A stretch of 29,418 bases of DNA from a virus, in IMG/VR virus record IMGVR_UViG_3300043436_003136, positions 1-29,418 of that record, one strand, 5' to 3'. Below the pieces are notes generated by a model that did no database searches, was not told the origin of the DNA, and saw only the letters and a program-made list of their open reading frames with translations. Below are positions 1 through 3,783 of this stretch, in pieces (position 1 is the first letter of the stretch; the number at the start of each line of letters is the position of its first letter). The position numbers were made by a program, and so were the translations under genes.

Positions 1-1674
1 ATCATCTCCAATCTCTGCAAACCTTTTTGTTTTCACATCGTACACAAAGGGAACTTCTCCCACGCGACCTATGAAAGACCAACGAATCTTTTGGATATTG
101 ATTAGGGTTTGCCCAGATACATAGTCTCGGTAAGCAACAAATCCGTTATCACACTTGTTGAAGAAGTGAGCAGATCCGGCTATGTCATAAAGAGTCGGCA
201 TAACATAAACACCGTTCTCCTTCCTAATCTTTGTAGGGTGAGCAATAACAAACACATGGACTCCGTAACGATCCTTGAATCGTTTAACCTTGGTGAGTGC
301 CTCTGAAATGTATTGCGTCTCACTCATTCCCTTTGGGACCTGGTGTTCAACATAGTTCCAAGGGTCTATCACAAGGCAATTGATTCCGTTACGCTTAACA
401 AGTTCAGCGGCTTTGTCTAGGATACCATCAATGGTCACATCCATCTCATCAATCTTCATGAAGTAAAAGTATTCCTCAACAAAGTCTCTTGCCTTATCAA
501 CTTCCTCTTGACTCATCTTTGCAGTAGGCACAAATGAGAAGAAAGGCTTCCCGATAAATATTTCAGCAAGTTCAGAAAAAAGTATCTCTGTAGGTTGCTT
601 TTCTGGGGAAAACATTGCTATCTTCCACGAATGTTTCGCAGACAATCTGACAAGTAAATTGTTCAGAAAAGTTGACTTTCCCGCGTTGGGTGTTCCTGTA
701 ATAATTGTGAACTCTGAACCTCGGAACGAGATATGCTCATCAAATTGATTAAACCCTGCTTTCAACCCATGAGGAAACCCATTAAGATATATATCAGATA
801 TTTTCTCCTTTACGTCATTTACCTTCTCAATGCCCTCTATTGGAATTTGATAGGCTTCTGCTACAACCTTTTGAAGAAGCTCTACTCCGTAATTAACTAG
901 AATCTCATTAGCATCCTTACACCCATCTGGAATGTTTACATACCAAATCTTCTCCCGACCAAGTCTTCGTGTTAACTCCTCACGAAGAGAGAGACCAGAT
1001 GAATCGTTATCGGTGAAAATGATAACCTTCTCCTTGTCGGCAAATGCGTCAATGCAGTTATCAAGATACTTGAGGTTTTGGTTTCCCTTCGTTGCTCCGT
1101 TAGGAACGCTTACGACAGGGTAAATTTGAGCTTCTTCCAAAGACAGAGCGTCCATTTCACCTTCAACGATTACACACCAATTATAGCCTTCTATGGAGTT
1201 CAAGTTATAGAGGATTAATTCCGCATCCTTAACCATCCGAAAGTTCTTTGCCGCATCTCTGTACTTGATGTTAACCAAGTCACTTCCTCGGAAGTAATTA
1301 AAACATATGGCGTTTCTATTTTCCCCGGCTTGAGGAAAGTAACACTCCTCTTCCGTAACCTTCAGTTTCAGCAAAGTGTTGTTGGAGATCCCTCTCTTCT
1401 CAAACCAAGAGAGAACTTTGTCGCTCACCTTCTGAAGTTTAGATGTTGGGATGAAGTACTCAACCTTTCGGTCCGACTTGTTTACGCTCTTACCCATGAA
1501 GGCTTCGCAGTTTGGGTAGTGACATTTGTACACACCTAACTCGACATTTACTGAAAGACTCTTGTCCTTCTTGTTACTTCTCGTGTCTTTGCAGAACGGA
1601 CAGTTTACTTTTTGTTGTGCCGAGGTATCCTTGCAGACAATTCCAAGGGCAGATAATTTTTGGTAGTTGCTCAT
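1..1674 (-). CDS. Primase-helicase, T7 gp4-like (partial, 3' end outside window)
   Basis: Bifunctional replication enzyme that should prime lagging-strand synthesis and unwind DNA at the phage fork. Reading the minus strand from the ATG at 1672-1674 gives 558 codons without a stop, so the C-terminus lies beyond base 1. Visible in order: an N-terminal zinc-binding site (C25, C28, C51, C56); a TOPRIM primase core with EGEMDAL at about 171-177 and DND at 222-224; then a RecA-like SF4 helicase domain with Walker A GTPNAGKST (327-335, K333), Walker B LVIDP (D437) and an IAHP motif (H479). This zinc finger-TOPRIM-helicase order is that of T7 gp4 and mitochondrial Twinkle. The start overlaps the stop of the upstream initiator-like gene (ATGA), implying translational coupling. 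Family assignment is strong; whether both activities are intact cannot be judged without the missing end. Confidence 0.93.
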   Translation of the reverse strand, partial: MSNYQKLSALGIVCKDTSAQQKVNCPFCKDTRSNKKDKSLSVNVELGVYKCHYPNCEAFMGKSVNKSDRKVEYFIPTSKLQKVSDKVLSWFEKRGISNNTLLKLKVTEEECYFPQAGENRNAICFNYFRGSDLVNIKYRDAAKNFRMVKDAELILYNLNSIEGYNWCVIVEGEMDALSLEEAQIYPVVSVPNGATKGNQNLKYLDNCIDAFADKEKVIIFTDNDSSGLSLREELTRRLGREKIWYVNIPDGCKDANEILVNYGVELLQKVVAEAYQIPIEGIEKVNDVKEKISDIYLNGFPHGLKAGFNQFDEHISFRGSEFTIITGTPNAGKSTFLNNLLVRLSAKHSWKIAMFSPEKQPTEILFSELAEIFIGKPFFSFVPTAKMSQEEVDKARDFVEEYFYFMKIDEMDVTIDGILDKAAELVKRNGINCLVIDPWNYVEHQVPKGMSETQYISEALTKVKRFKDRYGVHVFVIAHPTKIRKENGVYVMPTLYDIAGSAHFFNKCDNGFVAYRDYVSGQTLINIQKIRWSFIGRVGEVPFVYDVKTKRFAEIGDD

Positions 1675-2939: not shown

Positions 2940-2961
2940 AAAAATGCCCCGAAGAATGGGG
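2940..2961 (-). terminator. Weak hairpin plus U-tract (attenuator-like)
   Basis: On the minus strand CCCC (2958-2961) pairs with GGGG (2947-2950) around a 7-base loop, and TTTTT follows at 2940-2944. The stem is only 4-5 pairs, so termination would be partial. It lies before, not after, the operon's second gene, which suits an attenuator. Confidence 0.4.
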
Positions 2962-3028
2962 AGGTCGAGGTCTCACACCATTCAACAGGGCTAATATTTT
3001 TTGTTTATTTTGCTGGCCTCGACTCCAA
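2940..3028 (-). ncRNA. Candidate structured leader or small RNA
   Basis: Between the promoter at 3034-3065 and the nuclease-like gene, about 90 bases on the minus strand carry no ORF but clear secondary structure. A perfect 7-base inverted repeat (GTCGAGG at 2964-2970, CCTCGAC at 3017-3023) extends to about 10 pairs with one bulge using GGAG/CTCC. Immediately 3' is a CCCC/GGGG hairpin followed by TTTTT. The outer stem's CTCC arm shares bases 2960-2961 with the hairpin, so the two foldings compete. It may be a free small RNA ended by the hairpin, or an attenuating leader of the replication operon. I recognise no known RNA family. Confidence 0.45.
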
Positions 3029-3033
3029 CGAAA

Positions 3034-3065
3034 CAAAGATAATAAAAATTACGCTGCTCTCCAAA
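3034..3065 (-). promoter_or_regulatory. Bacteroidota-type sigma-A promoter for the replication operon
   Basis: On the minus strand TTTG (3062-3065) is followed after exactly 20 bases by TATCTTTG (3034-3041), which fits the Bacteroidota consensus TTTG-N19/20-TAnnTTTG. The -33 element lies inside the end of the 71-aa gene. It should start transcripts near 3028 into the structured leader and the three replication genes. This is the best two-element promoter in the window. Confidence 0.68.
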
Positions 3066-3264
3066 CACGAACTCCACCGTCCATTGATCGGGCAGTTAGT
3101 TCGTAGTTCTTCTTTTTCTTTTGGTAGAAAAGTTTAGCAAGGTATTTTGATGTCTCTCCAGGAACGAAGAAAGAATCTCCAACTTCCATATCTGGCAAAA
3201 CATATTCGGTTTTTCTACCTCTCCCACTTGTGCTTGGAATCGGTATATTTTTATCTACGTTCAT
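3049..3264 (-). CDS. Small conserved phage protein (MEVGDSFFVP family)
   Basis: 71 aa, basic at both ends. The core reads GRGRKTEYVLPDMEVGDSFF with VP following (about 14-35), and the end is GGVRVWRAA. Short phage proteins with a 'Y-x-hydrophobic-x-x-MEVGDSFFVP' segment and a terminal G-x-RVWR are widespread in marine and other environmental tailed phages, usually beside replication or nucleotide-metabolism genes. Their function is unknown to me, and the basic character allows nucleic-acid binding. Its own TAnnTTTG box lies at 3288-3295, and its 3' end contains the -33 element of the next promoter. The coding call is good because of the conserved motif and the spacing; I give no function. Confidence 0.72.
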   Translation of the reverse strand: MNVDKNIPIPSTSGRGRKTEYVLPDMEVGDSFFVPGETSKYLAKLFYQKKKKNYELTARSMDGGVRVWRAA

Positions 3265-3400: not shown

Positions 3401-3745
3401 ATGAACGTAAAAGGAAAAATCAAATCGGTAGGTAACACCGAACAAAAGAGTGCCAAATTTTCTATTAGAACATTTGTCCTAGAACTAGAGGGTAAGTACC
3501 CAGAGTTAGTAGAGTTCCAACTAATTAACAACAACACCCTTCTTATTGACCCATTTAGTGCTGGAGATGAGATTGACGCTCACTTCAATTTAAAGGGTAG
3601 GGAGTACAACGGAAGGGTTTACAATTCTCTCCAAGTTTGGAAAATAGAAGGGGAGGCAAAACCACAAAATGAACCCACGCCACAACCACAGACAGAAGTT
3701 CCACAGGGGGAGTCAAAAGGCACAGAAGACGACCTCCCATTCTAA
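3401..3745 (+). CDS. Single-stranded DNA-binding-like protein (DUF3127 type)
   Basis: 114 aa. Residues 1-85 form a beta-rich, OB-fold-like domain resembling DUF3127, a family known mainly from Bacteroidota and their phages: it opens with VKGKIKSVG, has FVLELEG and FQLINNNTLLIDPF strands, and closes with YNSLQVWKIE. A Pro/Gln-rich disordered linker (about 88-108) leads to the acidic tail EDDLPF. In bacterial SSBs the acidic DDIPF tip recruits partner proteins, so the tail strongly suggests an SSB role. It would coat single strands at the replication fork made by the divergent primase-helicase operon. It has its own promoter box upstream and a terminator directly downstream, so it is probably a single-gene transcript. 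The function is inferred from fold and tail. Confidence 0.82.
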   Translation: MNVKGKIKSVGNTEQKSAKFSIRTFVLELEGKYPELVEFQLINNNTLLIDPFSAGDEIDAHFNLKGREYNGRVYNSLQVWKIEGEAKPQNEPTPQPQTEVPQGESKGTEDDLPF

Positions 3746-3758
3746 TATAAAAACAAAG

Positions 3759-3783
3759 TCCCCCTTCTTTAGGGGGATTTTTG
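3759..3783 (+). terminator. Rho-independent terminator after the SSB-like gene
   Basis: TCCCCC (3759-3764) pairs with GGGGGA (3772-3777) around a 7-base loop and is followed directly by TTTTTG. An A-rich stretch upstream could make it work on both strands. The T-tract runs straight into the next promoter box. Confidence 0.8.

Follow-up and report, generated by a model that had tools for sequence, protein, structure and literature searches.

Some RNAs that control transcription by intrinsic termination, whether attenuators or riboswitches (e.g. the purine riboswitch), combine in a 5′ leader a loop-loop tertiary pairing with an intrinsic terminator placed before the gene. Fully pairing loops of 7-8 nt are also found in the RNAs that control plasmid replication, RNAI/RNAII of ColE1 and CopA/CopT of R1, where the loop sequence is variable and the frame is constant. 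The phage phi29 encodes a structured RNA, the pRNA, with complementary loops that pair between molecules for packaging. In phage HK022 the put RNA, ~70 nt with two stem-loops, follows the early promoters PL and PR; its fold includes a minor-groove triplex, and the paper describing it reports no kissing interaction (PMC9378689). In phage T4, hairpins at the start of homing-endonuclease genes limit their expression; in seg43(25) a stable hairpin lies immediately 5′ of the ribosome binding site (PMC2988022).

The RNA analyzed here lies in a virus record of 29,418 bases (the window), the plus strand of which carries terminase and portal genes. The minus strand reads in order a 71-amino acid DUF7303-like gene, an RNA of ~90 nt (about 3029-2940) and a replication operon (Table 1). 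A sequence-only reading had proposed a minus-strand promoter that is followed by ~90 structured bases instead of a gene, and by replication genes. The promoter is present, of a conserved Bacteroidota type and overlapping the 3′ end of the 71-amino acid gene, no ORF lies between it and the terminator of the RNA, and the operon 3′ of the RNA comprises a GIY-YIG-like gene, a replication initiator and a primase-helicase-like gene. The ATG of the GIY-YIG-like gene is 13 nt past the U-tract, and the open-ended ORF at the end of the window reads as a putative zinc finger/TOPRIM/helicase protein. The Pfam DUF7303 score of the 71-amino acid protein was just below the cut-off.

Table 1. Features of the RNA and its gene neighborhood in the window, followed by the loop pairs of the corresponding RNAs of other phages
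Feature	Position	Strand	Sequence or basis
Promoter, TTTG (3065-3062)-N20-TATCTTTG (3041-3034)	3034-3065	minus	sequence
5′ hairpin H1, GUUGG (3029-3025)/CCAGC (3016-3012), 8-nt loop A-GUCGAGG	3012-3029	minus	minimum free energy and consensus fold
Predicted kissing loop 1, GUCGAGG	3017-3023	minus	complementary to loop 2 in all homologues
Single-stranded A-rich linker between H1 and H2, ~20 nt	2992-3011	minus	
Terminator hairpin H2, GCCCUG-UU-GAAUGG-U-G-U-GAG/CUC-C-CCAUUC-UU-CGGGGC, loop A-CCUCGAC	2946-2991	minus	
Predicted kissing loop 2, CCUCGAC	2964-2970	minus	
Intrinsic-terminator U-tract, UUUUU	2940-2944	minus	sequence
DUF7303-like gene, 71 aa, 5′ of the RNA	3049-3264	minus	phrog_7597, 4.5e-5
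GIY-YIG-like protein (MUG113/T5orf172), 173 aa, first gene past the leader	2405-2926	minus	Pfam PF13455, 6e-10
Replication initiation protein	1671-2408	minus	phrog_11233, 5.7e-34
Primase-helicase-like gene, open-ended 558-aa ORF leaving the window	1-1674	minus	motif reading, no HMM hit
elemoA 7-9A loops			UGAGAGC/GCUCUCA
elemoA 2-5C loops			GUGAGAUG/CAUCUCAC
Olleya phage Harreka_1 loops			GUGGUGG/CCACCAC
FCV-1 loops, two copies			GUAGUGC/GCACUAC and GUAGAGAG/CUCUCUAC
sniff9-2 loops, two copies			GUCGUCG/CGACGAC and GUGAGACG/CGUCUCAC
snusmum9-1 loops			GUGGAACG/CGUUCCAC
FCL-2 loops			CAUCCAC/GUGGAUG
Polaribacter P12002L loops			GUCGUAG/CUACGAC
Lessievirus loops			UUGGCGG/CCGCCAA

Relatives of the 71-amino acid protein occur in >150 viral stretches, many of them from other phage groups. 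A DUF3127 gene adjoins the RNA or the replication module in the window (3401-3745, plus strand), in sniff9-2 (L300 13071-13418) and in Riemerella phage RAP44 (L307 38824-39180), the last of which lacks the RNA. After the DUF3127 gene of the window there is a strong bidirectional terminator-like hairpin (CCCCCTTCTTTAGGGGG, 3755-3781). In the phage carrying the divergent homologue L010 the primase-helicase (L010:5984-8614) has an insertion absent from the protein of the window, with intein-like ends (CFHPSAEVLTQYGW... to ...GCISISGN|C).

The calculated minimum free energy of the element is -26.7 kcal/mol, with z = -2.53 relative to shuffled sequences, so that it folds beyond chance. The thermodynamic fold comprises two hairpins, and the family consensus likewise folds into H1 and H2. 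The stem of H2 has 16 bp, interrupted by a UU/UU internal loop and small bulges. GUCGAGG and CCUCGAC are predicted to be the apical loops of H1 and H2, forming a 7-bp kissing helix. This is a pseudoknot, and hence beyond what the secondary-structure program used can draw. By a geometric estimate the ~20-nt linker of the window should be long enough for the kiss to form within one molecule, but the loops may instead pair between molecules. The sequence-only reading had correctly seen that the two segments are complementary, but had taken them for the arms of an outer stem extendable to ~10 pairs; the helix is instead most probably loop-loop, and the extension is not conserved. A GC hairpin followed by TTTTT had also been recognized, but this is the 16-bp stem that encloses CCCC/GGGG, and not a 4-bp hairpin. 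The CCCC/GGGG mini-terminator on its own was rejected as it shows no covariation and cannot form in the L010/L013 homologues.

The kissing helix is compatible with both stems, and therefore, contrary to what had been suggested, the GTCGAGG/CCTCGAC pairing does not weaken the terminator. All of the conserved helices are mutually compatible and no conserved antiterminator helix was found, so that an attenuator based upon competing folds is not supported and was rejected. The best helix of the 5′ arm of H2 with H1 and the linker is mostly of 5-7 bp including G-U pairs, at a site that differs from family to family. A classical attenuator switch is therefore not visible, and any switching would have to be effected by a trans-acting factor, by the polymerase or by the kinetics of kissing. 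A leader-peptide attenuator was also rejected, because there is no conserved short ORF in the leader; the mini-ORF ATG GTG TGA to which attention had been drawn is absent in 13 of the 21 homologues (GAATAGGTGAG).

Relatives were first gathered via the 71-amino acid gene, and thus blind to the RNA. The RNA lies directly after this gene in every close relative with enough sequence. The gene is 5′ of the RNA in all members of the window family, but not in L010-L013, and its more distant relatives (L067-L108) gave no confident match to the RNA, so the RNA is not tied to this gene family. A pattern scan of viral sequences placed RNA of the window type on 37 contigs. In 19 of 19 records the contig had a single copy. 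Every member of the window family has UUUUU after H2. The promoters mostly keep the frame TAnnTTTG with variable nn (TATCTTTG, TACATTTG, TACCTTTG, TATATTTG, TATGTTTG); a few copies (L049, L055, L062) depart from it at one position.

Covariation was analyzed in 21 distinct homologous RNAs. The base pairs are kept at 98.8%, with a covariation score of 0.270 compared with 0.125 ± 0.010 for shuffled and ≤0.058 for slid controls. All seven pairs of the kissing helix can form in all 21 sequences with none broken, and three of them exhibit changes on both sides, in 9-10 of the 21 sequences (C-G/A-U, A-U/C-G and G-C/A-U). Such compensatory changes had been named beforehand as support for pairing of these arms. 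The alleles of loop 1 are GUCGAGG, GUAGAGG, GUCGCAG, GUAGCAG and GUAGCGG. H1 has double compensatory changes at three of its six pairs, and in H2 all 16 pairs are kept in 21/21 homologues, with one A-U/G-C compensatory pair. In the window family the stem columns of H2 have a pairwise identity of 94%, compared with 62% for third codon positions in the neighboring gene, and the kissing columns one of 78%. The frame of the RNA is nearly fixed while the loop code varies, which hints at specificity. G-U pairs are kept in both hairpins, indicating that RNA rather than DNA is the selected molecule.

A covariance model was built from H1 and H2 with the kiss left out. This matched divergent homologues in L010-L013 with 47-49 bits and E of about 1e-7. 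In L010/L013 the kiss is still complementary at 7/7 positions with new sequences (GUAGCGG/CCGCUAC and GUAGCAG/CUGCUAC), and H2 has further compensatory changes, including GAG/CUC to GUG/CAC. On this comparison the molecule appears to have what characterizes a kissing-loop RNA, i.e. fully complementary hairpin loops that are kept by covariation.

Isolated phages of Flavobacterium, Olleya, Polaribacter and Burkholderia share the architecture, in which at least 17 different pairs of matching loops are seen (Table 1). The covariance model gave a weak match (15.5 bits, E 0.73) 5′ of the replication protein of Flavobacterium phage elemoE, where the site on reading contains the promoter TATCTTTG, H1 with loop GUGGAGG, H2 with loop CCUCCAC, a terminator and then the operon. 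The loop UUGGCGG is invariant in the Burkholderia phages BcepMigl, BcepIL02, DC1 and CSP3. The RNAs of snusmum9-1 (GUGGAACG/CGUUCCAC) and sniff9-2 (GUGAGACG/CGUCUCAC) differ at two kissing positions, with the partner loop changed to match, and are near-identical elsewhere. Genomes with two copies have loop codes without cross-pairing (at most 4 nt). Near the HNH gene of Polaribacter P12002L, on its 5′ side (L301:13050-13190), TCGTAGC and GCTACGA are complementary without a clear H1 or terminator; this could be a degenerate variant, a translational variant or chance.

A structural descriptor found 39 distinct matches, mostly alleles of the window family with a few due to chance, compared with three in dinucleotide-shuffled DNA of the same size. 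In 18/18 representatives the two loops of an RNA are complementary to each other over 7-8 nt, compared with a mean of 1.1 and a maximum of 7 when loops were permuted (20,000 trials); note that the kiss itself led to P12002L, BcepMigl, the FCV-1 replication copy and the L157/L199/L224 type, and that the window family, L010/L013, elemo, Harreka_1, snusmum9-1, FCL-2 and the FCV-1 HNH copy were identified by homology or position. The internal loop beside the kissing stem is AGUA/GAA in L157, L199, L283, L297, L296 and L305. This type includes L157, L199, FCV-1 HNH, FCL-2 and Harreka_1, whereas the window type has UU/UU instead. We take AGUA/GAA to be the consensus of the sarcin-ricin (bulged-G, loop E) motif, and it may mark a site of protein binding or packing.

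That no described RNA family corresponds to the element, as had been stated, agrees with our search of Rfam 15. The window had no match there at family gathering thresholds, and the element none with E up to 10 (the sole snoRNA match being unrelated and outside the element); the homologue loci matched only tRNAs, with no RNA family at the element. No RNA of the window type was found by pattern scan of 84,980 bacterial and archaeal genomes, and a replication-protein scan of those genomes gave no match. An alignment-based viral scan returned nine loci, every one on an already known contig, and blastn of the RNA against named phages gave chance matches only. As negative controls, the element is absent from the gap 5′ of the primosomal gene of RAP44 and from that 5′ of an HNH gene of a crAss-like phage, and so it is not universal. 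No description of the element was found in the open-access literature.

The element is found in two settings, replication operons and, separately, HNH and GIY-YIG homing-endonuclease genes. In the window family alone it precedes several unrelated types of initiator (MSLHSFEV-, MNTGQIV-, MKYQEDE- and MSELMTY- proteins), and in other families DnaD/O-like or primosomal proteins. In L199 a GIY-YIG gene and in L157 an HNH-type gene are preceded by near-identical RNAs, and related RNAs lie 5′ of HNH genes in L224, L180, FCV-1 and sniff9-2, where the nuclease types at the L loci are a reading of the translations. Among L031-L065 the gene right after the RNA alternates between unrelated replication proteins and GIY-YIG-like proteins with the RNA constant. 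There is probably a recombination joint at the terminator.

The ATG follows the U-tract at a distance of 0-22 nt in nearly all families (two have 29 and 43 nt), and no TAnnTTTG sequence lies between them in the families compared. The promoter is mostly 8-15 nt from the first loop (21 nt in L010), and the spacing between the loops is 40-56 nt, mostly 42-47 nt, across unrelated families. In L010/L013 a single leftward promoter was seen for the replication initiator, and transcription from it would pass through the RNA and its terminator; because the upstream gene is divergent, no other way into the initiator gene is visible. The layout of an attenuator, i.e. a promoter, terminator hairpin and U-tract 5′ of a gene with no second promoter, is seen most cleanly here.

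We consider it probable, if by no wide measure, that the RNA is a portable cis-acting leader, an attenuator that would gate the downstream replication operon via a loop-locked terminator. RNA polymerase would start at H1 or a few nucleotides before it, and H1 would fold at the extreme 5′ end of the transcript, displaying its 7-nt loop. As H2 emerges its loop would pair with that of H1, and the RNA would become a compact pair of kissing hairpins with an intrinsic terminator at its end. Transcription would mostly stop at this point, and the gene just past the U-tract would be made solely from transcripts that read through. The replication genes have no other visible promoter, and therefore read-through must happen. 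The fraction of read-through would be set by whatever stabilizes or disrupts the kiss, whether this is a protein of the phage or host, another RNA or RNA polymerase itself. Sequence comparison shows how the RNA folds and that its loops pair, together with the promoter, the form of the terminator, the spacing to the ATG and the re-use before unrelated genes. We infer that termination is incomplete or under regulation, that control is exerted at the kissing fold and that a signal exists.

The sequence-only reading had offered an attenuator or riboregulator, or else a small RNA. The order of promoter, structured RNA, terminator and operon stands, but the mechanism of competing folds does not. The main rival of the leader is a stand-alone ~90-nt phage small RNA that acts in trans, e.g. 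through binding to another RNA or to a protein of the host or phage, with the downstream gene passive. The RNA also looks like such a small RNA in having a promoter to itself, a hairpin at the 5′ end and a terminator, with structure at both ends, and the fold is conserved more strongly than a terminator alone needs. The single copy per contig in 19 records would be in keeping with this, and the downstream gene varies even within the window family, as it would for an independent unit beside a recombination joint. Yet unrelated families keep a same-strand start codon within 0-22 nt with no other promoter, and a replication or endonuclease operon is always 3′; a free small-RNA gene needs no such placing. 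Position and spacing favor the cis leader, and we regard the small RNA as possible but unlikely.

A further proposal, which we think rather doubtful, extends the cis leader. The kissing loops would be a self/non-self code, and the released RNA would also act in trans on leaders being transcribed from its own phage or from a co-infecting one, lowering read-through into the replication operon as genome copies rise. This would amount to plasmid-style copy control or superinfection exclusion, exerted by an RNA with both of the complementary loops, and homing endonucleases would have captured the device with private loop codes.

It is distinctly improbable that the leader modifies the polymerase in the manner of HK022 put, with the nascent kissing RNA binding the elongating enzyme so that its own and later terminators are ignored. 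A ~90-nt RNA with two hairpins just past a promoter that is early, as judged from gene content, would suit such a role, but put has no terminator of its own whereas H2 has its U-tract in all families, and neither sequence nor Rfam connects the two. It seems very unlikely that the element is just a leaky terminator of the ordinary kind, damping expression while H1 and the kiss only stabilize the RNA; the terminator is well formed and low expression is often needed for replication and endonuclease genes, but a plain terminator needs no upstream matching loop kept compensatorily in many families. Inverted repeats acting as DNA, at a replication origin or as initiator-binding sites near the initiator gene, would explain the proximity to replication genes in one of the two settings, but this reading is already disfavored and highly improbable given the copies 5′ of endonuclease genes, the conserved G-U pairs, the TAnnTTTG promoter 8-15 nt ahead of the first loop and the U-tract on one strand only.

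The regulation of Bacteroidota phages is largely uncharted, and the element is testable and present in several isolated phages. It sits at the decision point for replication of the DNA, selfish endonuclease genes have put it to use as well, and it provides a search model for the class in genomes outside the coverage of Rfam. The use of the terminator's own loop as the partner in a tertiary contact would be an unusual design for an attenuator.

The leader shares with those of the purine-riboswitch type its position 5′ of the gene, a loop-loop pairing and a terminator ahead of the gene. It differs in that the loop of the terminator hairpin is itself the kissing partner, and in having no separate aptamer core, cross-family ligand pocket or alternative antiterminator helix. 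With HK022 put it has in common a length of ~70-90 nt and two hairpins, right after an early phage promoter and before early genes, where 'early' is judged from gene content; unlike put it has its own terminator, and no sequence relation was seen. A variable loop code on a kept frame and a link to replication recall the plasmid copy-control RNAs. Those are pairs of RNAs from opposite strands, whereas both loops here are in one transcript. Both loops are also on one RNA in contrast to phi29 pRNA, and the leader heads replication operons and ends in a terminator; its position with replication genes argues against a role of the pRNA type. Like the hairpins of the T4 endonuclease genes it appears to guard endonuclease expression, but those are single and mostly sequester the ribosome binding site, whereas here there is a two-hairpin kissing RNA with a promoter and a terminator. 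The element would work like an attenuator and is a member of no named family, and it looks like an undescribed phage RNA switch.
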